Shown in pieces: positions 3,027 to 46,145 of a stretch of 64,000 nucleotides of DNA. Position 1 is the stretch's first letter. Each line of letters begins with the position of its first letter. The notes beneath the pieces are model-generated. The model did no database searches and was not told where the DNA came from. It saw only the letters and a program-made list of their open reading frames with translations. Source of the DNA: Flavobacterium lacustre (GTDB lineage: Bacteria; Bacteroidota; Bacteroidia; Flavobacteriales; Flavobacteriaceae); NCBI RefSeq assembly GCF_027474525.2, contig NZ_CP114882.2, forward strand, positions 620,001-684,000. Reading direction: 5' to 3'. A program made the translations under genes and the position numbers.

Positions 3027-3671
3027 ATGAGCTTTTATTGGATTAAAACAAAATCATTCATAAAGAGATTATTCTCAAATTACGTTTGGGACTTACCCAA
3101 TACGCAAAACAAAATCTATCTTACTTTTGATGACGGACCAACACCGGAAATCACAGAATGGGTCTTGGAAGAATTAAAAAAACACAATGTAAAAGCAACC
3201 TTTTTTTGCATTGGAAATAACATTCAAAAACATCCGGAACTCTTTCAAAAAGTCATCAACGAAGGCCATGTCATCGGGAATCATACTTACAACCATATGA
3301 ACGGATGGAAAACTGAAACCAAAACGTATTTAGAGAATATCAGTTTGTGCGAAAAACAAATTCAAAAATCTTCAATTGAGAACCTTCAATCAAAAATTTT
3401 CCGTCCGCCTTACGGCAAAATAAAAACAGCACAAGCAAAAATCGTAAGACGATTGGGATACAAAATAATCATGTGGGATGTTCTCAGCGCGGATTTTGAC
3501 CAAACCATTACGCCCGAAAAATGTCTAGAAAATGTGATTTCAAATGTAAAATCAGGAAGTGTAATTGTATTTCATGACAGCATAAAAGCATCGCATAATC
3601 TAAAATATGCTTTACCTGAAACACTTAATATCTTAAAAGAAAAAGGATTTTTATTTGATGTTATAAAATAA
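3027..3671 (+). CDS. Polysaccharide deacetylase (NodB domain)
   Basis: A 214-residue carbohydrate esterase family 4 enzyme, expected to remove acetyl groups from N-acetylglucosamine-type sugars in the envelope. The catalytic motifs are intact: TFDDGP (catalytic and metal Asp), HTYNH (metal His pair), RPPYGK, WDVLSADFD and the final IVFHDS. The N-terminal ~20 residues are basic and hydrophobic and could be an anchor. I chose ATG 3027 because the upstream in-frame GTG at 2985 lies inside the terminator hairpin. It stands alone, tail-to-tail with the thioredoxin-like gene. Substrate unknown. Confidence 0.88.
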   Translation: MSFYWIKTKSFIKRLFSNYVWDLPNTQNKIYLTFDDGPTPEITEWVLEELKKHNVKATFFCIGNNIQKHPELFQKVINEGHVIGNHTYNHMNGWKTETKTYLENISLCEKQIQKSSIENLQSKIFRPPYGKIKTAQAKIVRRLGYKIIMWDVLSADFDQTITPEKCLENVISNVKSGSVIVFHDSIKASHNLKYALPETLNILKEKGFLFDVIK

Positions 3672-32148: not shown

Positions 32149-33219
32149 ATGAATTTGAATTCAAACAACAAGACTATTTTAATCGCGCCCTTAAATTGGG
32201 GATTAGGACATGCTACACGTTGCATTCCTATCATCAAAGCATTACAAGAAAATAATTTCATCCCAATAATTGCTTCCGATGGAATTGCATTAGCGCTTTT
32301 ACGAAAAGAGTTTCCATATATCCAAACATTAGAACTGCCTTCATACCAAATAGAATATGCCAAGAATGGTAAAAATTTCAAATGGAAATTACTGAAGAAT
32401 CTCCCAAAAATGATGGAAGCCATTTGGGAAGAAAAAAGATTAGTCAAAAAATGGGTCAAAAAATATGCTATTGAAGGTATTATTTCCGACAATAGATTAG
32501 GAGTTTTTAGTCCAAAAGTTCCCTCAGTGTTTATTACACATCAATTGAATGTCATGACCGGGAATACTACATGGATAACCAGTATTTTACATCAAAAAAT
32601 CATCAAAAAATATACAGAATGTTGGGTTCCTGATGTTGAAAATGCTATAAATTTGACGGGTAAATTAGGACATTTAAAGACGAATACACTAAACCTGAAA
32701 TACATTGGACCATTGAGTCGTTTACACAAAAAAGAAGTGCCACAAAAATATGATTTAATGGTAATTCTGTCCGGTCCTGAGCCGCAACGGGGAATTCTGG
32801 AAGAGATGTTAAAAAGAGAAGTTTTACGATTTAATGGCAAAGTCGTTTTTATCAAAGGAATTGTCGAGAAAGAACAGAAGAAAGAAGAAATAGAAAATAT
32901 TACGTATTATAATTTCATGAATACGCGCCAACTCGAACAAACTTTTAACGAAAGTGAAATTGTACTTAGCCGTTCGGGATATACCACTATCATGGACTTG
33001 GCTGTCCTGCAAAAAAAGGCTTTTTTTATTCCTACTCCAGGGCAATATGAACAAGAATATTTAGCAAAAAAACTAAAAAACAGCAATTTAGTTCCTTTTG
33101 CTGAGCAGGACAATTTTAGAATTGAAGCACTTGCAGAGATAAAAAATTATCAAGGATTACCAATCGTAAACACCGATTTTGACTGGACTGACTTATTAAA
33201 AGTTTTTGATGATAAATAA
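32149..33219 (+). CDS. MurG-like glycosyltransferase (GT28-type)
   Basis: 356 residues. The N-terminus has the nucleotide-sugar transferase loop NWGLGHATRCIPIIKAL, and the C-terminal half shows a GT-B acceptor/donor pattern: VILSGPEPQRG, ETFNESEIVLSRSGYTTIMDLAVLQKKAFFIP-like signature (split here: SRSGYTTIMDLA, then FIPTPGQYEQEYLA). These correspond to the UDP-sugar site of MurG and relatives. Acceptor unknown. It shares a terminator with phoU. Confidence 0.85.
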   Translation: MNLNSNNKTILIAPLNWGLGHATRCIPIIKALQENNFIPIIASDGIALALLRKEFPYIQTLELPSYQIEYAKNGKNFKWKLLKNLPKMMEAIWEEKRLVKKWVKKYAIEGIISDNRLGVFSPKVPSVFITHQLNVMTGNTTWITSILHQKIIKKYTECWVPDVENAINLTGKLGHLKTNTLNLKYIGPLSRLHKKEVPQKYDLMVILSGPEPQRGILEEMLKREVLRFNGKVVFIKGIVEKEQKKEEIENITYYNFMNTRQLEQTFNESEIVLSRSGYTTIMDLAVLQKKAFFIPTPGQYEQEYLAKKLKNSNLVPFAEQDNFRIEALAEIKNYQGLPIVNTDFDWTDLLKVFDDK

Positions 33220-33279: not shown

Positions 33280-33954
33280 TTAACTGTCTAATTTCTTATC
33301 GTCAAATTTTTCGTGTTTGATTATTTTAGCATGAATCATAAAATGAACATATTCAGCAACATTAGTACAATGCTCAGAAATACGCTCAAGATGTTTCAAC
33401 ACAATTACAAGATTAGTCCCGGAAACAACTGCTTTCGAATTTGTTTTCATCTCCGTAATGATATCGTGAATGGCTTCATCACATCTATTTTTGATGGTTT
33501 TATTCAAAACAAAAATCTCTCCTATAGTACTTTCATCACGTGTTATGAAACATTCATTGGTTTTAGTAGTCACCAACTCCACTTGACGCGCTAATTCTGC
33601 TATGTTGAATTTAGCAATCAAGTCGTGTTTATCTTTAATACTTTTTGTTTTTTTGATGATGCTAATAGACAAATCTCCTATACGCTCAATCTCATTGCTA
33701 ATTTGCATAGCCGACATGATAAAACGCAAATCCGAAGCTACAGGTTGCTGTAACGCAAAAATACTTTGACAAATCTCATCAATTTTTACATCTAATTTAT
33801 CAATTTTATGCTCGGTTTTCTTTACTTCTTTTCCTTCAGCGACAGCTTCTGAAAGTAATGCATTTACAGATTCACTCACCTGAATTTCAGCAAGTTTCCC
33901 TATTTTTATAATTATATTTTTAAGTTTTTCTAATTCTATTTCAAAGTGTGTCAT
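33280..33954 (-). CDS. phoU: Phosphate-uptake regulator PhoU
   Basis: 224 residues, all helical, with the PhoU double three-helix pattern. Each half carries a metal-binding signature (ISNEIERIGDLSISI and VLKHLERISEHCTNVAEY). It links the Pst transporter to the PhoR/PhoB-type pair, damping the Pho response when phosphate is plentiful. Last gene of the minus-strand porin-pstSCAB-phoU operon. Confidence 0.96.
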   Translation of the reverse strand: MTHFEIELEKLKNIIIKIGKLAEIQVSESVNALLSEAVAEGKEVKKTEHKIDKLDVKIDEICQSIFALQQPVASDLRFIMSAMQISNEIERIGDLSISIIKKTKSIKDKHDLIAKFNIAELARQVELVTTKTNECFITRDESTIGEIFVLNKTIKNRCDEAIHDIITEMKTNSKAVVSGTNLVIVLKHLERISEHCTNVAEYVHFMIHAKIIKHEKFDDKKLDS

Positions 33955-34032
33955 CCTATTATTTTTTTAGTATTAAGAGTAAAAATCACAACAACAAAAC
34001 AAGCATTAAAGCCTGCAAGTTCGTTTTAATTT

Positions 34033-34791
34033 TTATCCAAATCTACCGGTGATGTAATCCTCGGTTTGTTTTTTCTCTGGTTTGGTAAAAATAGCATTTG
34101 TTTTTCCCATTTCAATCAATTCACCCATATAAAAAAAAGCAGTATGATCACTTGTTCTTGCTGCTTGTTGCATGTTATGCGTAACAATTATTATGGTATA
34201 TTGCTCTTTTAGCTCATGAACTAATTCTTCGATTTTAGAAGTCGATATTGGATCTAATGCACTCGCAGGTTCATCCATAAGAATAATATCCGGGCTTACT
34301 GCCAAAGTTCTCGCAATACACAAACGTTGTTGTTGACCACCTGAAAGACCCAATGCAGAATCGCCCAATCTGTCTTTTACTTCATCCCAAATAGCCGCTT
34401 GTCGCAAAGAAACCTCAACAATTTCGTCTAATTCAGTTTTATTTTTTATTCCGTTAATTTTCGGACCGTAAGCAATATTCTCATAAATAGATTTCGGAAA
34501 AGGATTTGATTTTTGAAAAACCATCCCAATTTTCTTTCTAATATTAACAACATCTACGTCTTTATTGTAAATATCAACGCCTTCAACCAGCATTTGTCCG
34601 GTGATTGTAACGTCAGGAATAAGATCATTCATTCTGTTGATACATCTCAAAAAAGTAGATTTTCCACAACCGGAAGGGCCTATTAAAGCAGTCACTTTAT
34701 TGGCTGGAATTTGCATCGAAATCTCTTTCAAAGCCTTTTTTTCGCCATAGTATAAGGATAAATCTTTAACTTCTATTTTTATATCTCTCAT
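34033..34791 (-). CDS. pstB: Phosphate ABC transporter ATP-binding protein PstB
   Basis: 252 residues. Walker [12 protein letters not shown], the PstB-specific [10 protein letters not shown]-loop [16 protein letters not shown], signature [16 protein letters not shown], Walker [14 protein letters not shown] and H-loop [12 protein letters not shown] are all present. It powers phosphate import. Follows pstA by 50 bp. Confidence 0.98.
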
Positions 34792-34841
34792 GTTCTTTAA
34801 TGTTATGTCTAAAATAATAAATTAGTAAATCGAATTGGAAA

Positions 34842-35786
34842 TTATTTAGCTCTTCTTCTAATTCTGGATCTAATAACTACCGCTACCAAGTTTAAGGATA
34901 AAGTAAGGATTAACAATACCAGAGTCGTAGCAAACTGTATAGGCATTGTTTTTTCTACATCAGATGATTGTGTAGACATAATGTAAATATGATATCCCAA
35001 ATTCATGAATTGATCACTCATTGACGCTGGTAAAGTGGCTAAATAATATGCCGCTCCCGTAAATAAAATAGGTGCAACTTCTCCAGCTCCACGGCTTACC
35101 GCAAGAATTGTCCCAGTCATAATTCCGGAAACAGAACCCGGAAGAACCACTTGTTTTATCGTTTGCCATTTTGTTGCTCCCAATGCTAAACTGGCTTCGC
35201 GTAACTCTCTTGGAATTGTTTTCAGCGCTTCCTCAACAGAAACAATAATAACCGGAAGCGTTAATAATGCCATTGTAAGACTCGCCCAAAGAATATTGGG
35301 TTGCCCCCAATGCAACTCGCCTGCATTAAAAACCTTATCAACTCCTCCTCCTACAAATTGAATAAAAAATCCAAGACCAAAAAGTCCAAATATAATAGAA
35401 GGCACAACTGCTAATGTACGAACCGAAAATCGGACAGCTGCGGCGAATTTAGAATTCTCCTTTGCATATTCTGTAAGATAGATAGCTGTAATTGTCCCGA
35501 AAGGAACTGCCGCAATCGACATAACAATTACCAATATAAAAGTTCCAATCAAAGCGGGAAAAATTCCTCCTTCGGTCATTCCATTTGTTGGGAAAGTAGA
35601 AATAAATTCCCATGAAAATCTCTCACGCCCTTGATAAATAATAATACCAAGAATTACAAAAAGAACGGCAATAATCAAGAAAACCGCCACTTGCGTAATT
35701 CCTATAACTATATTTCCTTTTAAATCCGCACCCTTCTTTTTACTTGGAAAAAAAGCAGTGTTTATTTCGTTATTAACTGTATCCAT
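34842..35786 (-). CDS. pstA: Phosphate ABC transporter permease PstA
   Basis: 314 residues, about six transmembrane segments. The EAA loop (EALKTIPRELREASLALGATKW) is the contact with PstB. GGIFPALIGTF and RFSVRTLAVVPSIIFGLFG are typical PstA. Starts 3 bp after the pstC stop. Confidence 0.97.
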   Translation of the reverse strand: MDTVNNEINTAFFPSKKKGADLKGNIVIGITQVAVFLIIAVLFVILGIIIYQGRERFSWEFISTFPTNGMTEGGIFPALIGTFILVIVMSIAAVPFGTITAIYLTEYAKENSKFAAAVRFSVRTLAVVPSIIFGLFGLGFFIQFVGGGVDKVFNAGELHWGQPNILWASLTMALLTLPVIIVSVEEALKTIPRELREASLALGATKWQTIKQVVLPGSVSGIMTGTILAVSRGAGEVAPILFTGAAYYLATLPASMSDQFMNLGYHIYIMSTQSSDVEKTMPIQFATTLVLLILTLSLNLVAVVIRSRIRRRAK

Positions 35787-35789
35787 AAT

Positions 35790-36986
35790 TTATTTGCCTT
35801 GAAATTTTTTGATTAATTTGCCTTTCACATAGAATTCTGCGATAGCATTTAAACCAAAAGAAAAAATAAAAAGTAATGACCCAATGAAGAATAAAACACT
35901 GTAATGAGTTTCTCCAAAAACAGTTTCGGCCATCTCAGAACCAATGGTGGCAGCAAAAGTTCGCACACTCTCAAAAGGATTTGCCGATAGTAAAGCAGCA
36001 TTTCCTGTTGCCATAAGAGCAATCATGGTTTCTCCAAAAACCCTTCCCACTCCTAAAAGTAGCGCAGCAAAAATCCCAGGGGTTGCGGCCGGTAATATTA
36101 CTAAAAAAGCAGTTTGTGCCTTACTGGCGCCAAGTGCTAAACTGGCTTCGGTGAATGTTTTTGGTACTGCCGAAAGAGCATCTTCTGAAATGGTATAAAT
36201 AATAGGTATTGCAGCCAATGCCATGGCAACTCCGCCAATAAACGCATTCAATCTTGAACCATATCCAAAGATATCCTGAAAGAAGGTAGCCAAAACCATC
36301 AAGGCAAAAAAACCAATTACTACTGACGGGAAAGCCGCCAACATTTCGATAATAGGTTTTATAATTTCCTTGACTCTTTTTGAGGCAAAACAAGAAGTAT
36401 AAATTGCAGCAAGAATCGCAATTGGTCCCGCAATCAACATGGATATAATAGTAACTTTTAGTGTCCCTATCAGTAATGCTATTAATCCAAAACGAGGATT
36501 ATCAGAAACAGGAACCCATTCTGTAGAAACAAAAGTACTCCAAGTCCTATCAGCTCCTTCCTTGTTTTCGGAAGCTACTATTGGGGTTTCTTCGGCACTT
36601 CCTACAGATAAATCTTCGGTAGCATCTCCATAAGTTTCCGGCGTTAAATCTTCGGTTGGAGCACCGTAAGATTCTGGTTGTAAATCTTCATTAGAAACTG
36701 CTTCGGCACCATAAGTCTCCGGTGCTAAATCTTCCACTGGAGCGCCATAGGATTCAGGCTTATCGGTTTCTGGAGCTTGAATTTCGGTGGTTTCTTTTGC
36801 TTTATCTCCAAAACTGAACAATGGTAAAGATTCTTTGAAAACAAAAATAAATATCAAGAAAATAATTGCAATGGATAAAAAAGCAACACTGGAAATAATT
36901 TTTTCGGCTAGAAATTCTGATAAGCGAAATTGCTTTTTCAGCGTTTCTTTGGTGAAACTTGGATTCTTAGGAAATTGGGGATTCAT
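35790..36986 (-). CDS. pstC: Phosphate ABC transporter permease PstC with repeat insertion
   Basis: 398 residues, longer than the usual ~300. Residues 30-50 are the first transmembrane helix. Then comes a soluble stretch with four 12-residue acidic repeats (PE-S/T-YG...EDL, residues ~77-127) before the main permease domain (~165-398). The EAA loop is EDALSAVPKTFTEASLALGAS. The insertion lies between the first and second helices, on the predicted periplasmic side. Together with PstA it forms the membrane channel. Confidence 0.96.
   Translation of the reverse strand: MNPQFPKNPSFTKETLKKQFRLSEFLAEKIISSVAFLSIAIIFLIFIFVFKESLPLFSFGDKAKETTEIQAPETDKPESYGAPVEDLAPETYGAEAVSNEDLQPESYGAPTEDLTPETYGDATEDLSVGSAEETPIVASENKEGADRTWSTFVSTEWVPVSDNPRFGLIALLIGTLKVTIISMLIAGPIAILAAIYTSCFASKRVKEIIKPIIEMLAAFPSVVIGFFALMVLATFFQDIFGYGSRLNAFIGGVAMALAAIPIIYTISEDALSAVPKTFTEASLALGASKAQTAFLVILPAATPGIFAALLLGVGRVFGETMIALMATGNAALLSANPFESVRTFAATIGSEMAETVFGETHYSVLFFIGSLLFIFSFGLNAIAEFYVKGKLIKKFQGK
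36606..36758 (-). repeat. In-frame tandem repeat inside pstC
   Basis: Four degenerate repeats encoding PE-S/T-YG-A/D-x-x-EDL-x (one copy 3 residues longer). The DNA copies are clearly related (for example GTAAGATTCTGG and ATAGGATTCAGG on the plus strand), pointing to expansion by slippage or unequal exchange. Confidence 0.85.
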
Positions 36987-37063: not shown

Positions 37064-37897
37064 TTATTTTACTGGATAATATCCTACTTCTACAATTACT
37101 TTTTGACCTTCAGGACTTAAAATCCAGTCGATAAAAGCTTTAGTATCACCGGTTGGTCTAGATTTTAAATACATAAATAAATATCTAGTGATAGGATATG
37201 TTTTATTTTTTATTGTAGCTGCTGTTGGTAAAATTCCAGGACTTTTATCATCTTTTTTTACTTTACAATCTTTAACTCCTTCTGCATATGCTGCACCACC
37301 GTAACCAATACCGTATTTATCTTTTTTTACTGCATTAACAATTGCTGCAGTACCAGGTAGAGTTTGACAAGTTGGTGAAAAATCAGTTTTTACAACATTA
37401 TCTTTGAAGAAACCAAAAGTTCCCGAACTACTCTCACGTCCGTACAATTTAATACTAGCATCAACTCCACCAACTTCTTTCCAGTTTGTAATTTTTCCTG
37501 CGAAAATTTCCCCAATTTGTTTCAACGTCAATTCATTAACACCATTTCCTTTATTCAAATAAACGGATAAACCATCTTTAGCACATGGAATCTCAACACC
37601 TAAAGTACTGTATCTTGCTTTTAATTTTTCCATTTCTGAAGGCTTAATCGGACGACTTGAGTTAGCAATATCAGTAGACCCATTAATTAATGCAGCAATA
37701 CCTACACCTGATCCCCCTCCGGTAACCTGAATTACTGTACCAGGATTTTTTTTCATATATATTTCAGCCCATTTTTGAGATAAAATAACCATCGTATCAG
37801 AACCTTTTACTGTGATTTTTGTTAAAGAAGTAAAAGAAAATCCTATTGCCATAATAGCCAATAAAATAACAGCTAATCTAAATTTTGTTGTTTTCAT
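37064..37897 (-). CDS. pstS: Phosphate ABC transporter substrate-binding protein PstS
   Basis: 277 residues, signal peptide at the N-terminus (hydrophobic FRLAVILLAIMAIGFSF). The phosphate-binding signatures are TVKGSDTMV, TGGGSGVGIAALINGSTDIANSSRPI and YGRESSSGTFGFF, the last two carrying the Ser/Thr/Arg/Asp that hold phosphate. It captures phosphate in the periplasm for PstCAB. Located 40 bp after the porin gene. Confidence 0.97.
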   Translation of the reverse strand: MKTTKFRLAVILLAIMAIGFSFTSLTKITVKGSDTMVILSQKWAEIYMKKNPGTVIQVTGGGSGVGIAALINGSTDIANSSRPIKPSEMEKLKARYSTLGVEIPCAKDGLSVYLNKGNGVNELTLKQIGEIFAGKITNWKEVGGVDASIKLYGRESSSGTFGFFKDNVVKTDFSPTCQTLPGTAAIVNAVKKDKYGIGYGGAAYAEGVKDCKVKKDDKSPGILPTAATIKNKTYPITRYLFMYLKSRPTGDTKAFIDWILSPEGQKVIVEVGYYPVK

Positions 37898-37937: not shown

Positions 37938-39269
37938 TTAAAATCCTGCTTGAATTCTTATTGTAAAAGTGTTATCTAATTTATCTTTTATATAATCTCC
38001 ACCAACAACTGTGCTAGATTCATTTATTGGCAAACTATAACCTGCAACAATTTTAACATTATCATCATAAAAATATTGCCATGAAAAAGACCAATTTTTA
38101 TATTTTAAATCATCTTTAATTGTAACAGCATTTCCTGACAAATGTCTATTAGGATCCCAACTATCATATCGAACGGCTATTTGATTACTTTTACCAATAT
38201 TTTTAACCCAAGTAGCATAAAACCCATTAAAATCACGAATACCGTTGAAATTAAAACTAGGATTACTATTAGCTACAGGAGATGCTGTCGTACCTTTTTC
38301 ACCTGAAATCGTTCCTGAAATATATTCTCCTTTTAAAGACATTCCGCCAAGAAAATCGTAATAAATTCTCATCTCACCACCAAACCATCTTTTTTGAAAA
38401 CTATCTCCTAATTTAGCTTCAAAGTTATTATTATTAGCATCACTAAAAGTTCCTGCTTGCAGAACGGTAGTATTACCTAAATAAGTATGTGCTCCAAGAT
38501 CAATACCTAATCCTTTTGATGGAAATTTAAAAGAATAAACTCCTCTTATCATAACATCTTTTTTATTATCAACATCCCTAAGATTGTTGGTCAAAGAGCC
38601 TTCTCCATAATTCCCATTAAAAACCGCTAATTGAAATTTAAATGGAATTGAATATTTCACTTCTAAATCTGCTTCAATTTTAGCTCCTAAATCCCTTTCC
38701 TGTGGGTATAAAATCCCTGACATTCTGCTTCGCTCCAATAACTCTCTTGAACGTGACGAAAACTCCACTTCATAACTTGTTCTATTAAATTGCCCTAAAA
38801 ACAATTTAAAAGTTTGCAACCAACGGTCATTCAAAGACACGTAAGCATCTCTTAAAGTAACTTTATCAAAAGCATAATCAGGCTGAATCACAAAAACAGC
38901 TCCGTCTACAGGCTCATAGGTCAATTTTACTCTAGCTCTTCTGATAAAAAAAGTATTTTTTACCGGAATAGCAGTTGTTGACGGACCTGGACCTATATTA
39001 TCTTGATAGTTATACATTTCATATTGAGTTTGTATATAACCTGAAAATTTAATCTTGGTTAATTTATCTAAACTACTTTCCATCGTAGATAACTTTTCAT
39101 CTAAAGACGAAAATTTCATACTATGTTCATCCAAAGACTCTTTTAACGACTCAATGCTTAACGTTTTAACAGAATCTATTGATATCGAATTTACCGAATC
39201 ATTAACAACATCTTGCGCTACCAGACTGTAAGAACTAATTATCAAAGTTGCAAATAAAATTTTTTTCAT
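37938..39269 (-). CDS. Phosphate-selective porin (OprP/OprO family)
   Basis: 443 residues. Signal peptide MKKILFATLIISSYSLVAQ, a predicted coiled-coil (SLKESLDEHSMKFSSLDEKL, about 40-75), then a 16-18-strand barrel with RRARVKLTYEPVDGAVFVIQ and KLFLGQFNRTSYEVEFSSRSRELLER, characteristic of OprO/OprP-like porins, ending FTIRIQAGF (terminal Phe). It should let phosphate through the outer membrane. First gene of the pst operon and preceded by a Pho-box-like promoter (39294-39327). Confidence 0.93.
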   Translation of the reverse strand: MKKILFATLIISSYSLVAQDVVNDSVNSISIDSVKTLSIESLKESLDEHSMKFSSLDEKLSTMESSLDKLTKIKFSGYIQTQYEMYNYQDNIGPGPSTTAIPVKNTFFIRRARVKLTYEPVDGAVFVIQPDYAFDKVTLRDAYVSLNDRWLQTFKLFLGQFNRTSYEVEFSSRSRELLERSRMSGILYPQERDLGAKIEADLEVKYSIPFKFQLAVFNGNYGEGSLTNNLRDVDNKKDVMIRGVYSFKFPSKGLGIDLGAHTYLGNTTVLQAGTFSDANNNNFEAKLGDSFQKRWFGGEMRIYYDFLGGMSLKGEYISGTISGEKGTTASPVANSNPSFNFNGIRDFNGFYATWVKNIGKSNQIAVRYDSWDPNRHLSGNAVTIKDDLKYKNWSFSWQYFYDDNVKIVAGYSLPINESSTVVGGDYIKDKLDNTFTIRIQAGF

Positions 39270-39293: not shown

Positions 39294-39327
39294 CAAATGT
39301 GGCATTGTTATGTTAAGCGAATGTTAA
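39294..39327 (-). promoter_or_regulatory. Pho-box-like promoter of the porin-pst operon
   Basis: On the minus strand TTAACA (39322-39327), 5 bp, TTAACA (39311-39316), 9 bp, then CACATTTG (39294-39301), a one-mismatch -7 element. The 11-bp repeat spacing and the place of the -33 box are as in PhoB/PhoP-activated promoters. There is no normal -33 TTTG. Same spacing as at 41533-41566. Confidence 0.65.
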
Positions 39328-39522
39328 CACAATATTATGTTGATGATAAATTAACATTAGAAACATACTAACGTACTGTTTTAGTGACATTTGAATTAAT
39401 TTCTTAATGTTTTTTTAAAGCCTAAAAATAAATTTGTTAATTTATATCCTACATTTATACTTTAAAGGACTACTATTTTGTTTTTAAAACACGAATGAAA
39501 AACGGCTAAACACACGAAGGTT

Positions 39523-40608
39523 TTATTTCGTAATATTTAACTCTTGCTTTTTTATTTTCGTTTTCTCAATGGTAAAAGAGAATTCAGAACCAATCCCAAA
39601 TTCACTTTCTACATATATTTTTTCTTTATGCGCTTCAATAATATGTTTGACAATAGCTAATCCTAAACCGGAACCGCCTTCTGAACGGGAACCGCTTTTA
39701 TCAACTCTGTAAAAACGTTCGAACAACCTTGGTATATTTTGTTGTTCAATCCCTTCACCATTATCTGTTACGCGAACCAAGGCTTTTTTATTGGTCAGAT
39801 TAATGATTGCCACCTCTGTCTCTCCGCCTTCTTTACCATATTTTATAGAATTGACAATAAGATTCTCAACCACTTGTTGTATTTTATCTTTATCACCATG
39901 AACTAAAATTGGTTTTATACTTTCATTTTCAAAAGCGAGTCTAATTTTCTTTTTATCTGCTTTCATTTCTAATAAATCGAAAACATTCTGAACCAACTCC
40001 ACGATATCAAAATCAGAAATTTCTAAGTGTAAATCCCCAGATTCTAATTTGGTAATCATATCCAAATCTTCGACAATATAAATTAATCGCTCTACTCCTT
40101 TTTCGGCACGTTTTAAATATTTTTTTCGAACCGATTTATCGTCCATAGCACCATCAACCAAAGTAGATAAATAACCTTGAACTGTAAATAATGGCGTTTT
40201 TAATTCATGAGAAACATTACCAAGAAATTCTCTTCTGTATTCTTCACGAACTTGAAGCATTTCGATTTCTAACTTTTTATCGGTAGCAAACTTCTTAACT
40301 TCTCGCGTTAAGGTTTCCATATCTGTAGTAATAGGCTGATTTATAAACGAGCTGGACTCTAATAAGGAAACATCATCATATATTTTTTTGACACGTCTGT
40401 AAATAAAACGCTCCACCCGATATTGTAAAACCAAAAAAGAAAACAAATAAATAACAACAAGACAGACAAATCCAAACGAAAACAAATCAACACCCTTAGA
40501 TCCAAAAAATAACAACACCATCAGCAATACAAATCCAGTAGCAAAAAGACTAATGAATAAGGCCGACTTTATCGCGAATTTATAGGTTTTCTTAAAATTG
40601 ATTTTCAT
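39523..40608 (-). CDS. phoR: Phosphate-regulon sensor histidine kinase (PhoR-type)
   Basis: 361 residues. Two transmembrane helices (about 13-35 and 38-60) with almost no periplasmic loop, then HisKA with the phospho-acceptor in NVSHELKTPLFTVQGYL and a HATPase domain (NLIVNSIKYG, VRVTDNGEGI, GSGLGLAIVKHI). The lack of a large sensor domain is typical of PhoR, which is thought to read phosphate status from the Pst-PhoU complex. It lies 63 bp after the response regulator. Confidence 0.88.
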   Translation of the reverse strand: MKINFKKTYKFAIKSALFISLFATGFVLLMVLLFFGSKGVDLFSFGFVCLVVIYLFSFLVLQYRVERFIYRRVKKIYDDVSLLESSSFINQPITTDMETLTREVKKFATDKKLEIEMLQVREEYRREFLGNVSHELKTPLFTVQGYLSTLVDGAMDDKSVRKKYLKRAEKGVERLIYIVEDLDMITKLESGDLHLEISDFDIVELVQNVFDLLEMKADKKKIRLAFENESIKPILVHGDKDKIQQVVENLIVNSIKYGKEGGETEVAIINLTNKKALVRVTDNGEGIEQQNIPRLFERFYRVDKSGSRSEGGSGLGLAIVKHIIEAHKEKIYVESEFGIGSEFSFTIEKTKIKKQELNITK

Positions 40609-40671
40609 TGATTTAACTCCTGCTTATGCTTAATTTGAATGCTTAATCTTGTTCTTTAAATAAAAGTACTT

Positions 40672-41358
40672 TTATACCACTTCAAATTTATATCCTACTC
40701 CTTTTATTGTTTTAAAAAAGTCTTCGCCAATTTTTTCTCTCAGTTTTCTGATATGAACATCAATAGTTCTTCCTCCAACAACGACTTCATTTCCCCAAAC
40801 TTTATCCAGAATTTCATCTCGTTTGAATACTTTTCCTGGTTTTGAAGCTAATAAATAAAACAATTCAAATTCTTTTCGAGGCAAAGCGATTTCGATATTG
40901 TCTTTTACAATTTTATATTCTTCACGATTAATTTCGATCCCGCCTACATTAAGTGTTTCGCTGTTTTTTTCCTGTTCTTTTAAGCGGCGCAACAATGCTT
41001 TTACTTTACTGACTAATAATTTAGGTTTTATAGGCTTGGTGATGTAATCATCAGCTCCGGCATCAAAACCGGCAACTTGAGAATAATCTTCACTTCTTGC
41101 AGTAAGGAATGTGATGATGACATTATTAAGTTCAGGGATTTTTCTAATATTCTCGCAGGCTTCCATTCCGTCCATTTCCGGCATCATGACATCCATTATA
41201 ATAAGGTCCGGGATTTCTTTTTTGGCAGCAGCAACTGCTTCTTTTCCGTTTGTTGCTGTATAAATTCTATAACCTTCTTGAGTAAGATTGTATCCTACAA
41301 TTTCTAAAATATCCGGTTCATCATCTACTAACAGGATTTTAATGTCTTTCTTCTTCAT
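40672..41358 (-). CDS. phoB: OmpR/PhoB-family response regulator (PhoB/PhoP-type)
   Basis: 228 residues. Receiver domain: LLVDDEPDILEIVGYNL, phospho-acceptor Asp in LIIMDVMMPEMDG, and the conserved TARSE and KPIKP. Winged-helix domain: ALPRKEFELFYLLASKPGKVFKRDEILDKVWG, then VDVHIRKLREKIG (split: KEFELFYLLASKPG). I chose ATG 41358: the frame extends to 41457 but the extra sequence is unlike a receiver N-terminus. The neighbours (PhoR-type kinase, pst genes) make it the Pho regulator. The gene symbol is by context. Confidence 0.87.
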   Translation of the reverse strand: MKKKDIKILLVDDEPDILEIVGYNLTQEGYRIYTATNGKEAVAAAKKEIPDLIIMDVMMPEMDGMEACENIRKIPELNNVIITFLTARSEDYSQVAGFDAGADDYITKPIKPKLLVSKVKALLRRLKEQEKNSETLNVGGIEINREEYKIVKDNIEIALPRKEFELFYLLASKPGKVFKRDEILDKVWGNEVVVGGRTIDVHIRKLREKIGEDFFKTIKGVGYKFEVV

Positions 41359-41532
41359 ATTATAAAGTAGCAAAATTATGTTTATCAAATTGGTTTTTTG
41401 TGTAAAAAAACCAAACGATTCTTGATTGCGATTGTAAATATAATGATAAAACAGCACTCAAAAAACGTGTTAACCTTAATTTAATGTACCAACGATTTGG
41501 TAATATTGAACCAACAAAAACATAACTACTAC

Positions 41533-41566
41533 GTAACCTGAATTTAACAAACCTGCCTTTAATTTG
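41533..41566 (+). promoter_or_regulatory. Pho-box-like promoter of the TonB-receptor gene
   Basis: GTAACC (41533-41538), 5 bp, TTAACA (41544-41549), 9 bp, TTAATTTG (41559-41566). The spacings equal those of the porin promoter (39294-39327). A further TTAACC-N5-TTAATG pair lies at 41471-41487. The start codon is 23 bp after the -7 element. Confidence 0.55.
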
Positions 41567-41589: not shown

Positions 41590-44343
41590 ATGAAATTAAA
41601 ATTTCTAATTATTACATTATTCATTTGTGTCCTTGGATTTTCACAAAACAAAGGGACTATTTCAGGGATTTTGACTGATAAAGATTCAAATAATCAGGCA
41701 TTGCCCTTTGCAAATGTTTTAATAAAAGGAACAAAAACAGGCGTAAATACGGATTTAGACGGTAAATATTCTATTGCTGTTACTCCAGGCAATTATATTC
41801 TACAATTTAGTTTTGTAGGTTACGAATCTTTAGAAGTACCCGTTACCGTAAAAGCAGACGAAAAAGTTACTATAAATAGAGCATTAGGTTCCGGCAGTTA
41901 CAAACTGGAAGATGTTGTTATTAAAGCTGCCGCTCCAAACAGACAAAAAGAAACTGCATTATTGTTAGAACAAAAAAATGCAGTAGAAATTAAACAAACT
42001 ATCGGCGCCCAAGAATTATCAAGAAAAGGGGTCAGCGATGTTGCTACCGCAGTAACAAAAACTACCGGAATAACGAAACAAGAAGGTTCAGGAAATATAT
42101 TTGTAAGAGGTTTAGGAGATCGTTACAATTCAACAACTATGAACGGCTTGCCAATTCCTTCTAATGATCCTGAAAAGAAAAATATTAATCTTGATATTTT
42201 CTCAACCGATATTCTTGAATATGTCTCTATTGACAAAGTCTACAACAGCAAATTATATGGTGATTTTGCCGGAGGAAATGTTGATATTGTTTCTAAAGAT
42301 TACAAAGGTAATGGATATCTTAAATTTGAAATTGGTTCAAAAATCAACACAAATGCAATTAGCAAAGATGCTTTTTCATTACAAAAAGGAATTAGTAATT
42401 TTGGTTTCAACAGCTCATCTATTCCGAGTAATCCACTAACACAATATAATTACAGCAGTTTACAGCTTGAAACTAAGAGCCCTATTGGAAGTAATTTTGG
42501 AATTTCGGGAGGAAAATCGTTTAATGTAGGCTCAGAAGGAAAACTAAATCTTTTTGCAACTGCATCATTCGGAAATGATTACGCATCAAGAAATGAAGGT
42601 TCTGCTAAAGGTAGTGTAAACGGAAGCGGTGTTGTGAACAAAAATTTTGAAGATTATTCATTAGTAAGTTATAACACCAATTTTACAGGAATGTTGAATT
42701 TAGGCTACAAAATAAATAATAGAAATAAAATTAACTTCAATAGTGTTTTTATAAACACTTCATCTCTTAGCAAAGAGGAATATACCGGATATATCGTAGA
42801 TATTGCAAATGACGGAAATGGGTTAATTCGTAGAAATAAATTTGAAAAAAACAGTTTATGGATCAATCAATTATTGGGAGAACATACTTTTAATGAGCGT
42901 TCAAAATTTAACTGGGGAGCTTCTTATAATACCATCCAAGGAGACATGCCGGATAGAAATCAAAATATTTTCAGAAAAGAACCAACCGGATATGTTTTAT
43001 CAAGTATTTCTGCACCAGACAATCACCGTTACTATCAAAAATTAATGGAAAATGAAGTCGCTGCAAACCTATCATTTGACTATAAATTCAGCAAAACAGG
43101 AGAAGGTGAATACAAAGGAAAATTAACCGCGGGGTACAACGGAAGATTTAAAACAAGAGATTTTGAAGCTACACAATTTAACTTCAAAGCAAATCAAGGA
43201 TTTAACAATACAATTGTTGACCCAAACAGCTTAGATTCATTTTACAACCAACAAAATTTAAGCAATGGATACTTTGAAATCACTACTTTCAGAGGAAATT
43301 ATCAAGTTCCAAATGCATTAAAACCACAGACTTATAATGGGGAACAATATATAAACGGTGGGTTTTTAAATACAGAATACAAATTCAATAAATTGACAAC
43401 GGTTGTTGGTTTAAGAGGAGAATATGTATTTCAAAAAGTGAAATGGAATACACAACTTGATCCAACTGGTGGAAATGACGAATTAGATAAATTAGCCTTT
43501 TTACCAAGTTTGACAATGAAATACGAATTGACTGAAAAACAAAATTTGCGTTTTGGATTTAGCAAAACGTATACATTGCCACAATTCAAAGAGAGAGCTT
43601 TATTTGTATATGAAGATGTTACAGAAGTAAAAGTTGGTAATCCAAACTTATACGCATCGGATAATTACAACTTTGATTTAAAATGGGAAATGTTTCCAAA
43701 AAGCGAAGAATTAATATCACTTACAGCATTTGGAAAATACATTCAAAATCCAATAAATGAAGTAACTATTGCCTCTTCAACAAATGATATATCATTTATT
43801 AATACAGGAGATTATGGTTATGTTGCCGGTGCAGAAGTAGAGTACAGAAAATTACTTTTTAATTTTGATGATTCTAATTCTAAAAAGCTTTCTGCCGGAA
43901 TAAATGCTTCTTACTTGTACAGCAATCAAGACTTAAATACTGAAAAAGTAATAAAAGAAACTGATTATAATGTTGTTTTCACCAATACAAAAAGTAGTTT
44001 TACCGGTGCATCCGATTTACTATTAAATGCTGACATTTCTTTTTTCAATGAATGGAATGATAAAGGAAGCAATTTAAACACCACATTGGCATACACTTAT
44101 TTTTCAGACCGACTTTATGCAATCGGAACTAATGACAGAGGTGATTTAGTTGATAAAGCTTTTGGATCATTAGATTTTATTGCTAAATCCAAATTGAATA
44201 AAAAAATAGGAATTGACTTTGTATTGAAAAATTTACTTGACCCACGAATAGACAGAGTTCAAGCAAACAGTAGTGGAGACGTTAACGTTTTGTCATACAA
44301 AAAGGGGTTAAGCTTCAGCCTGAATCTCAATTATCAATTTTAA
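41590..44343 (+). CDS. TonB-dependent receptor with carboxypeptidase-regulatory domain
   Basis: 917 residues. Signal peptide MKLKFLIITLFICVLGFSQ. A CarboxypepD_reg-like beta-sandwich (about 24-110, GTISGILTDKDSN, GKYSIAVTPG) is followed by the plug domain (about 120-230, GISNIFVRGLGDRYNSTTMNGLPIPS-type region) and a barrel of 22 strands that ends in LNLNYQF. No SusD partner is next to it; instead a beta-helix lipoprotein gene follows. It diverges from the phoB-phoR-pst genes and has a similar promoter, so the cargo may be a phosphorus compound, by inference. Confidence 0.93.
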   Translation: MKLKFLIITLFICVLGFSQNKGTISGILTDKDSNNQALPFANVLIKGTKTGVNTDLDGKYSIAVTPGNYILQFSFVGYESLEVPVTVKADEKVTINRALGSGSYKLEDVVIKAAAPNRQKETALLLEQKNAVEIKQTIGAQELSRKGVSDVATAVTKTTGITKQEGSGNIFVRGLGDRYNSTTMNGLPIPSNDPEKKNINLDIFSTDILEYVSIDKVYNSKLYGDFAGGNVDIVSKDYKGNGYLKFEIGSKINTNAISKDAFSLQKGISNFGFNSSSIPSNPLTQYNYSSLQLETKSPIGSNFGISGGKSFNVGSEGKLNLFATASFGNDYASRNEGSAKGSVNGSGVVNKNFEDYSLVSYNTNFTGMLNLGYKINNRNKINFNSVFINTSSLSKEEYTGYIVDIANDGNGLIRRNKFEKNSLWINQLLGEHTFNERSKFNWGASYNTIQGDMPDRNQNIFRKEPTGYVLSSISAPDNHRYYQKLMENEVAANLSFDYKFSKTGEGEYKGKLTAGYNGRFKTRDFEATQFNFKANQGFNNTIVDPNSLDSFYNQQNLSNGYFEITTFRGNYQVPNALKPQTYNGEQYINGGFLNTEYKFNKLTTVVGLRGEYVFQKVKWNTQLDPTGGNDELDKLAFLPSLTMKYELTEKQNLRFGFSKTYTLPQFKERALFVYEDVTEVKVGNPNLYASDNYNFDLKWEMFPKSEELISLTAFGKYIQNPINEVTIASSTNDISFINTGDYGYVAGAEVEYRKLLFNFDDSNSKKLSAGINASYLYSNQDLNTEKVIKETDYNVVFTNTKSSFTGASDLLLNADISFFNEWNDKGSNLNTTLAYTYFSDRLYAIGTNDRGDLVDKAFGSLDFIAKSKLNKKIGIDFVLKNLLDPRIDRVQANSSGDVNVLSYKKGLSFSLNLNYQF

Positions 44344-44516: not shown

Positions 44517-45698
44517 ATGAAAAAATCAATTTTACAATTATTCGGAATTTTTGCTTTATCAGCATCTTTGATTACAAGCTGTTCAAGCGATAGCGGAAAT
44601 GACACTCCTTCATCAACATTTGTAGTTGATGCAAACAACTTTACTGGTATCATAAAAGACGGAGAAGTTATTCTTTCTGCAGGAACTACTTATAAATTGA
44701 CAGGAAAATTACAAATAAACGACGGTGCAACATTAACTATTCCTGCTGGAACAAAAATTGAAGGAACTGGCGGAACTGCATCATACATAGCAGTTGCTCA
44801 AGGAGCAAAATTAAATGTAAACGGAACGGCTTCTAATCCAGTAATTATGACAAGTGGATTACCAACTAAAAAAGCTGGAGACTGGGGAGGTTTAGTAATC
44901 TGTGGAAAAGCTCCTATAAATCGTGTAACTGGTGGAGCAAGTACTGCACAATCTGAAGTTGCTGACTTAACTTACGGAGGAACAATAGCTAATGACAATT
45001 CCGGTTCTATCCGATATTTAAGAATCGAATATGCTGGAGCAGCATACAATAGTGAAAAAGAATTTAACGGAGTTTCGTTATTTGCTGTTGGTTCAGGAAC
45101 TACATTCGAATATGTAGAAGCTTACCAAGGTGCTGATGATGGTTTCGAATTTTTTGGAGGAACTGTAAATACTTCTAACCTTATTTCTTACGGTAATGAA
45201 GATGATCAATTTGACTGGACTGAAGGTTGGGCTGGAACAAACACTAACTGGTATGGTAAATTAGCTTTTGGAAAAGGAAATAGAGGAATTGAAGCAGACA
45301 ACTTTGAATTTGGTTTTGCAAATACTCCAATATCAAATCCTTCTATAACAAACATTACTTTAGTTGGACCTGGAAGTGCAGCTGATGCATTAATTTATAC
45401 CGAAAATCAAGGTTTGAAAATGAGAAGAGGTACAAAAGCAATTTTCTCTAATGTTGTTTTAAGCGACTGGAAAACGGGTATCGATATCGAACACGATGAA
45501 ACTATTGCTGGTGTTGGTACAGCATTAAAAGTTACTAATGTAAATTACATTGCTGTTGCTACAAAAACTAAAGGAAAAACAACTTTAGCTGCTTCTGCTG
45601 ACGTATCTGCAGTAGCAACGGAATTAGTTTCTGCAACTGGTGCAGGAAATGGAGTTGGAGCACCTGCTTGGTCTACAGGTTGGTCAGTAGGTTTCTAA
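44517..45698 (+). CDS. Surface-type lipoprotein with parallel beta-helix, unknown function
   Basis: 393 residues. Lipoprotein signal (FALSASLITSC, Cys22), and the acidic/Ser-rich residues after the Cys (CSSDSGND) resemble the export signal that sends Bacteroidetes lipoproteins to the cell surface. The mature part is Gly/Asn-rich with regular hydrophobic spacing (TYKLTGKLQINDGATLTIPAGTK-type rungs, GWAGTNTNWYGKLAFGKGNRG), typical of a right-handed beta-helix. It sits between the TonB receptor and a type IX signal protein, so it may present or process the receptor's substrate. Terminator at 45723-45753. Confidence 0.82.
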   Translation: MKKSILQLFGIFALSASLITSCSSDSGNDTPSSTFVVDANNFTGIIKDGEVILSAGTTYKLTGKLQINDGATLTIPAGTKIEGTGGTASYIAVAQGAKLNVNGTASNPVIMTSGLPTKKAGDWGGLVICGKAPINRVTGGASTAQSEVADLTYGGTIANDNSGSIRYLRIEYAGAAYNSEKEFNGVSLFAVGSGTTFEYVEAYQGADDGFEFFGGTVNTSNLISYGNEDDQFDWTEGWAGTNTNWYGKLAFGKGNRGIEADNFEFGFANTPISNPSITNITLVGPGSAADALIYTENQGLKMRRGTKAIFSNVVLSDWKTGIDIEHDETIAGVGTALKVTNVNYIAVATKTKGKTTLAASADVSAVATELVSATGAGNGVGAPAWSTGWSVGF

Positions 45699-45806: not shown

Positions 45807-46145
45807 ATGACAAAAAATTACTTTTATACTTCAATCTTATTGGTTTTTTTGTTTTCTCTTAGTCTTTCGGCTCAAGAAGCTAAGCAACAACCAAGACCAC
45901 AAGAAAACACTTCGATAGAAGGGCTTAACTTGTATCCGAACCCTGTGAGTAATGGCAAAGTCTACATTACTTCAAAAAATGATTCCGATAAAGAAGTACA
46001 AATATTTGATGTTTTAGGCAAAAAAGTATTTCAAACCATGCTGAGTTCAAAAGAACTGAATGTTTCCAATCTTTCGCCGGGAGTTTACATCATCAAGATC
46101 AAAGAAAACGAAGCTTCAAGCACCAGAAAACTCATCATAAGATAA
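45807..46145 (+). CDS. Minimal type IX secretion substrate: signal peptide plus C-terminal sorting domain only
   Basis: 112 residues. Signal peptide to about residue 22 (SLSLSAQ), ~20 residues of linker (KQQPRPQENTS), then a complete type-A sorting domain: LNLYPNPVSNGKVYI, VQIFDVLGKKVF, LSPGVYIIKIKEN and the terminal KLIIR. Type A domains normally sit at the end of large secreted proteins; here nearly no passenger is left. Terminator at 46165-46192. Confidence 0.85.
   Translation: MTKNYFYTSILLVFLFSLSLSAQEAKQQPRPQENTSIEGLNLYPNPVSNGKVYITSKNDSDKEVQIFDVLGKKVFQTMLSSKELNVSNLSPGVYIIKIKENEASSTRKLIIR

Follow-up and report, generated by a model that had tools for sequence, protein, structure and literature searches.

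The PhoP box of Bacillus subtilis is composed of TTAACA-like direct repeats with an 11-bp period, several units of which stand in tandem before phosphate genes, and in Escherichia coli the PhoB box replaces the -35 contact. The promoters of Bacteroidota are recognized by a -33 TTTG followed by a -7 element, TAnnTTTG. In E. coli the Pho box bound by PhoB consists of 11-nt direct repeats of CTGTCAT placed head-to-tail (PMC4415409). As for Bacteroidota, the expression of pstC depends on PhoB in Bacteroides fragilis, where the regulator directly binds a 512-bp fragment of the pst promoter (PMC3547664), and PhoP of Riemerella anatipestifer, which reportedly rises under phosphate starvation, was shown by DAP-seq to bind TTTAACA (PMC9603813). 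In the one open library that we searched, the material in print for the phosphate response of Bacteroidota amounts to gene lists and one in-vitro motif, and no Bacteroidota Pho box with a promoter layout was found. The core letters are already published for one species, and the element described here is very probably an operator of known type on an unusual promoter type.

The window, i.e., the whole stretch of DNA analyzed, spans 64,000 nucleotides of Flavobacterium lacustre and harbors a phosphate island: the minus strand encodes porin-pstS-pstC-pstA-pstB-phoU, phoR and phoB, the plus strand a TonB receptor and an FII-type lipoprotein. The porin-pstSCAB-phoU operon is led by an OprP-like porin (37938..39269, minus strand) that had no match in Pfam or NCBIfam; 5 of 60 other genomes of the genus have porins 52-87% identical to it. 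The porin gene is followed on the same strand by pstS (37064..37897; PF12849, with the subfamily cut-off of the PstS family TIGR02136 passed) and by pstC, pstA, pstB and phoU (33280..36986), which passed the equivalog cut-offs of TIGR02138, TIGR00974, TIGR00972 and TIGR02135, respectively. The PhoR-like histidine kinase (39523..40608, minus strand) had the PnpS and PhoR models as its top two matches, both under cut-off. The OmpR-family response regulator next to it (40672..41358, minus strand; PF00072, PF00486), the presumed binder of the arrays, is PhoB-like: PhoB (TIGR02154) was the best of 103 families at 217.7 bits, but the cut-off of 296.2 bits was not reached, and the name PhoB therefore relies on gene neighborhood. 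On the plus strand, the TonB-dependent receptor (41590..44343; plug and barrel domains) is the orthologue of the phosphate-induced Fjoh_0545 and 69% identical to the receptor of locus L156, and the FII-type lipoprotein (44517..45698) is the orthologue of the phosphate-induced Fjoh_0546, with 74% identity to the copy in genome G135. We took G135 as F. johnsoniae from the gene order of Fjoh_0541-0546 and from several Table 1 genes (PMC8115612) lying near their expected places.

Upstream of the porin-pstSCAB-phoU operon stands TTAACA-N5-TTAACA-N9-CACATTTG, read on the minus strand (39327..39294) as TTAACA-TTCGC-TTAACA-N9-CACATTTG with the porin ATG 24 bp on; upstream of the TonB receptor, divergent from phoB, stands GTAACC-N5-TTAACA-N9-TTAATTTG, read on the plus strand (41533-41566) as GTAACC-TGAAT-TTAACA-N9-TTAATTTG with the receptor ATG 23 bp on. 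Re-reading the letters confirmed both strings exactly as an earlier note on this DNA had described them, as well as its remark that the -33 TTTG is missing, which is the case at both sites and is expected for an activator-dependent promoter. The two hexamers that it counted per site are present, but the count was incomplete, since each promoter holds five units in 11-bp register, the last of which ends 13 bp before the TTTG. The two promoters do point apart, as stated in that note, although phoR-phoB sits between them and the gene divergent from the receptor is phoB itself. In the porin-pst array (39294..39360, minus strand), whose layout recurs before porin and pst genes in other genomes, the units are CTAATG (39355-39360), TTATCA (39344-39349), ATAATA (39333-39338), TTAACA (39322-39327) and TTAACA (39311-39316), followed by N9 and CACATTTG (39294-39301). 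In the receptor array (41500..41566, plus strand), aligned with 27 loci, they are GTAATA (41500-41505), CCAACA (41511-41516), ATAACT (41522-41527), GTAACC (41533-41538) and TTAACA (41544-41549), followed by N9 and TTAATTTG (41559-41566). The -7 element of both promoters retains TTTG, with TA replaced by CA or TT. Additional units occupy the phoB-receptor gap (41470..41499, plus strand), namely TTAACC (41470-41475), N5, TTAATG (41481-41486) and, after an 8-bp step, CCAACG (41489-41494); at the positions of the extra units, 81 and 92 bp before the TTTG, TAAC or TAAT occurs 23 and 22 times in the 27 loci, and these units may also serve phoB.

The arrays resemble the B. subtilis PhoP box in the nearly equal hexamer, in the 11-bp direct repeats and in the multiple tandem units at phosphate genes, but they stand at a fixed distance from the Bacteroidota -7 element (TTTG) and not from a -10 hexamer. 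With the E. coli Pho box they share the 11-nt head-to-tail repeats, whereas the core sequence, the sigma factor and the promoter geometry are different and the basic E. coli box has two units. The likeness to the Riemerella motif, judged from the motif and its description, lies in a related bacterium, a regulator raised by starvation and the same core letters; however, no 11-bp array, link to a promoter element or pst gene appears in the parts of that account available to us (PMC9603813). Likewise, unlike the window arrays, the binding of B. fragilis PhoB comes with no binding sequence in the accessible portion of its description (PMC3547664). We consider it very probable that the arrays are Bacteroidota Pho boxes, bound by the neighboring PhoB and activating phosphate genes in low phosphate. 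Three features of a Pho box were found: tandem direct repeats of 11-bp period, an occurrence before phosphate-acquisition genes above chance, and a set spacing from the core promoter that places the repeats over the -35/-33 position. PhoB as the binder, activation and the replacement of the -33 contact are what we infer from them, and a PhoB array in place of the -33 element is the simplest account in light of the known 11-nt Pho boxes (PMC4415409) and of the Riemerella TTTAACA (PMC9603813).

Within the genus, the pattern NTAACA-N5-TTNACA-N9-TTNNTTTG gave 80 matches in 77 of 199 genomes, as compared to 8 for the reversed pattern. Loci were fetched for 30 of the matches, of which 26 lie upstream of a receptor-type protein (three checked with Pfam), one before a PlcP-type phosphoesterase, and three before an unrelated gene or no gene that could be found. 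The neighborhood of phoB was then considered in 80 loci, nearly all from Flavobacteriaceae, where the layout is often seen again some 20-30 bp upstream of the divergent receptor. Counting the layout within 400 bp of phoB and allowing at most 2 mismatches of the 16 fixed bases (77 of the 80 loci, three being too short), we found it in 26 of 36 loci that have a phoB-linked receptor, the remaining 10 falling below this threshold, vs. 1 of 41 loci without (Fisher 2.4e-11); in the sole exception, L121, a weaker receptor match lies further away. When the 27 receptor promoters were aligned on the TTTG, additional upstream units shared the 11-bp register: once the two units that had served for selection were set aside, 75 of 149 TAAC/TAAT words were in register, and 45 of those out of it shared one other register, mainly that of the 8-bp shifted pair closer to phoB. 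The corresponding counts were 22 of 29 words in 13 hand-picked porin, pst and Pit promoters of the genus and 11 of 20 in 18 hand-picked promoters mostly from other genera, all of them counts that are not independent as promoters share descent. The distance of 13 bp to the TTTG holds in both window sites and in the 27 receptor loci, the latter having been chosen by that spacing.

On the phoB side of the same gap, many of the loci L046-L125 show, by eye, a conserved -7-like stretch (TATCTTTACATTTG or TATATTTAC) before phoB, and a pair of units containing GTTAAC or GTTAAG some 20-30 bp before that stretch. The two together suggest a feedback on phoB, and the orientation of the pair is ambiguous because GTTAAC is palindromic.

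The layout also reaches other phosphate genes. In 9 of 10 related loci (L046, L047, L048, L052, L157-L161) it stands, with at most 3 mismatches, before the porin or pstS, being absent before both genes in L060, and in L059 it precedes the region of a PiT-like transporter. When 397 genomes of the family were searched strictly, 40 matches were obtained vs. 21 for the reversed pattern; among the 29 fetched, all outside the genome of the window, 12 in other genera lie 21-29 bp upstream of a similar porin of roughly 400 aa (two of these loci being near-identical, and all five proteins submitted to Pfam being Porin_O_P), and one lies 124 bp upstream of a glycerophosphodiester phosphodiesterase. Just 1 of 25 PlcP orthologues (L338) carries the layout within 2 mismatches; in-register units are visible by eye in the PlcP promoters of L356, L357, L358 and L360 (the window's own genome), and those of the F. 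johnsoniae group have an altered form of the layout. PhoX promoters were gathered via PF05787, found in 19 of 121 genomes, with no match in G135, where PhoX was recovered by similarity; none of the PhoX-like genes (about 500 aa) shows a full array, the best having one good unit or a site with 2-3 mismatches.

The association extends through the phylum. A PstS search of 148 Bacteroidota genomes had a match in 102, from which 85 pst upstream regions were chosen by hand, leaving 84 regions from 21 families after the removal of one that was too short. TTAACA pairs with at most 1 mismatch occurred at period 11 in 16 of the 84 regions and 10 of the 21 families, against at most one region for every other period from 7 to 21, and a mean of 0.17 (maximum 2) in 200 dinucleotide shuffles. 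The earlier note had called the element the Bacteroidetes Pho box, and had named a lack of enrichment before phosphate genes as the outcome that would speak against it; the enrichment in pst regions, and the tie of the pattern to phosphate genes in genus, family and phylum, support it. With 2 mismatches allowed, period 11 was found in 25 regions and the runner-up, period 10, in 9; adjacent hexamers (period 6, outside the 7-21 range compared) occurred in 3 of 85. Among 60 orderings of the letters of TTAACA, only TAACAT and AACATT, which are 1- and 2-base shifts of the repeat, also exceeded 3 regions. The pair was absent from the pst regions of two families (f15, 0 of 28; f22, 0 of 8). A TTTG followed the last unit within 40 bp in 8 of the 16 pair-bearing regions and in the other 8 did not; the distance was 13 bp in four, 24 bp (one unit further) in two and 25 bp in two, with one extra TTTG at 4 bp, so that 6 of the 8, in regions not selected by spacing, lie at 13 or 24 bp.

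Arrays of three TAACA units were likewise searched in the 148 genomes, with 41 at a spacing of 11+11 bp (in 29 genomes, including a few overlapping arrays and one simple-repeat site). The reversed pattern gave 8, and the 24 other spacings averaged 4.2 with a maximum of 13. Summed over all 25 spacings the reversed pattern is the commoner (about 200 vs. 142), and the comparison was therefore made between spacings of the forward pattern. Eight of the 30 loci fetched are phosphate-linked (pstS in three, a pst-linked permease in one, a PHO4 transporter in one and a porin in three); the other 22 comprise six with a TonB receptor and 16 with another gene, an unassigned one or none. The absence of a plainly phosphate-linked gene from these 22, among which are TonB receptors and a phosphofructokinase, would suit operators of another OmpR-family regulator with a TTAACA-like site, e.g., an ArcA-like one, with phosphate genes only some of its targets, and the Riemerella motif was indeed matched to ArcA by its authors (PMC9603813). 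Nonetheless, the arrays adjoin phoB and track the phoB-receptor pair, they stand at pst upstream regions in 10 of 21 families, and the Riemerella binder is itself reported to rise in phosphate starvation (PMC9603813), which makes such a regulator improbable as compared to PhoB. The six TonB receptors preceded by three-unit arrays (L388, L396, L401, L405, L412, L415) belong to six other Bacteroidota genomes, and could possibly be unrecognized phosphate-scavenging receptors.

Expression data are at hand for F. johnsoniae, in which phosphate depletion raised Fjoh_0545 by 8.0, Fjoh_0546 by 9.9, phoB by 3.1 and FIII by 11.6 (PMC8115612, Table 1; the column FC is taken as log2 from the paper's text). 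The array scores of the Fjoh_0545 and FIII promoters, 22.7 and 18.2, exceed those of all 195 controls (maximum 12.9). The earlier note expected both window genes to respond to phosphate limitation: the induction of Fjoh_0545 (PMC8115612) favors this for the receptor, and the porin half gained no support. Fjoh_0542 (OprP, locus L156), beside phoR, has a three-unit array with N13 to the TTTG (score 19.4), but is listed as not induced by phosphate depletion (-1.3, FDR 0.25; PMC8115612); it is a different OprP-type porin, missed by the search with that of the window. Across the regulon, just 7 of 20 induced upstream regions scored above the 95th percentile of the controls, and in a rank-sum test other gaps and some other periods did equally well or better, so that gap 13 and period 11 were not singled out; the test took induced genes with a locatable upstream region and left out Fjoh_2225, 3249-3252, 3414 and genes inside operons. 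Genes of the PUS I and FI clusters, which have their own sigma factors, showed no array and scores like those of controls, as fits an indirect control.

The hexamers alone were somewhat enriched in the induced F. johnsoniae promoters regardless of spacing, and the local intergenic DNA is A+T rich, as would be the case if the repeats were merely the A+T-rich upstream element of a constitutive promoter working without an activator. This is very unlikely, given that the period of 11 and the letter order of TTAACA are specific, that the three-unit spacing peaks at 11+11 and that phosphate depletion induces the F. johnsoniae receptor by log2 8.0 (PMC8115612).

At the level of the single genome, exact TTAACA-N5-TTAACA-N13-TTTG occurs once in 3.45 Mb, and loosened forms showed no enrichment: with 2 mismatches, the hexamer pair was found 20 times in the window vs. 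27 expected, the full layout with 3 mismatches 3 times in the window vs. 2.1 expected, and the full layout with 2 mismatches 15 times genome-wide vs. 22 for the reversed pattern. The case must therefore be carried by conservation. Scanning the window for five-unit arrays, using a matrix built from relatives and not from the window itself, ranked the two promoters first and second (25.6 and 20.3; mean 16.5 and maximum 20.0 in 40 Markov shuffles), and a three-unit scan gave 21.4 and 18.0 (shuffles: mean 14.4, maximum 19.4). A chance meeting of two similar strings in an A+T-rich genome, to which the loosened layout being no commoner than its reverse within single genomes would lend itself, has a negligible probability in view of the in-register conservation across genera and families.

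Under the Pho box reading, the neighboring kinase would phosphorylate PhoB when phosphate is low, and PhoB would bind the tandem 11-bp units head to tail, each of the five units in a promoter (approximate consensus nTAACA) taking one subunit, all on one face of the helix. As the proximal unit ends 13 bp before the TTTG, the nearest PhoB pair would cover the site of the missing -33 element and, in its stead, recruit RNA polymerase carrying the Bacteroidota sigma factor. This would turn on the porin-pstSCAB-phoU operon together with the TonB receptor-FII pair, and the array shared in the phoB-receptor intergenic region would probably feed back on phoB too. We tentatively extend this to a wider view that may well prove too broad, in which phosphate promoters of much of the Bacteroidota are long PhoB filament sites of five to eight in-register 11-bp units replacing the -33 element, with a two-way array shared by phoB and the divergent receptor, and in which the TTAACA/11-bp operator, its code being nearly that of Bacillus PhoP, is ancestral to Bacteroidota and the phylum of Bacillus, the proteobacterial CTGTCAT box being derived. 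Bacteroidota are major recyclers of organic matter, and a phased operator in many of their families would make likely direct PhoB targets readable from the genome and help to separate them from phosphate loci driven by sigma factors, such as PUS I and FI; the arrays also offer a testable example of activator placement on the unusual promoter of this phylum.

Other features of the island concern its remaining genes. The glycosyltransferase adjoining phoU (32149-33219, plus strand; PF13528/PF04101) is likely the orthologue of the phosphate-induced Fjoh_0541, and no phased array was seen in its upstream 120 bp. In PstC (35790-36986, minus strand), imperfect repeats (PESYGAP / PETYG ... EDL) make up an acidic N-terminal insert located between the first membrane segment and the permease domain. 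The gene after the FII lipoprotein (45807-46145, plus strand) encodes a small protein whose C-terminal sorting domain is that of type IX secretion (PF18962), and elsewhere in the same genome (G000:C1:1282643-1284961) a 1652-aa open frame carries two more FII-like stretches (36-37% identity).
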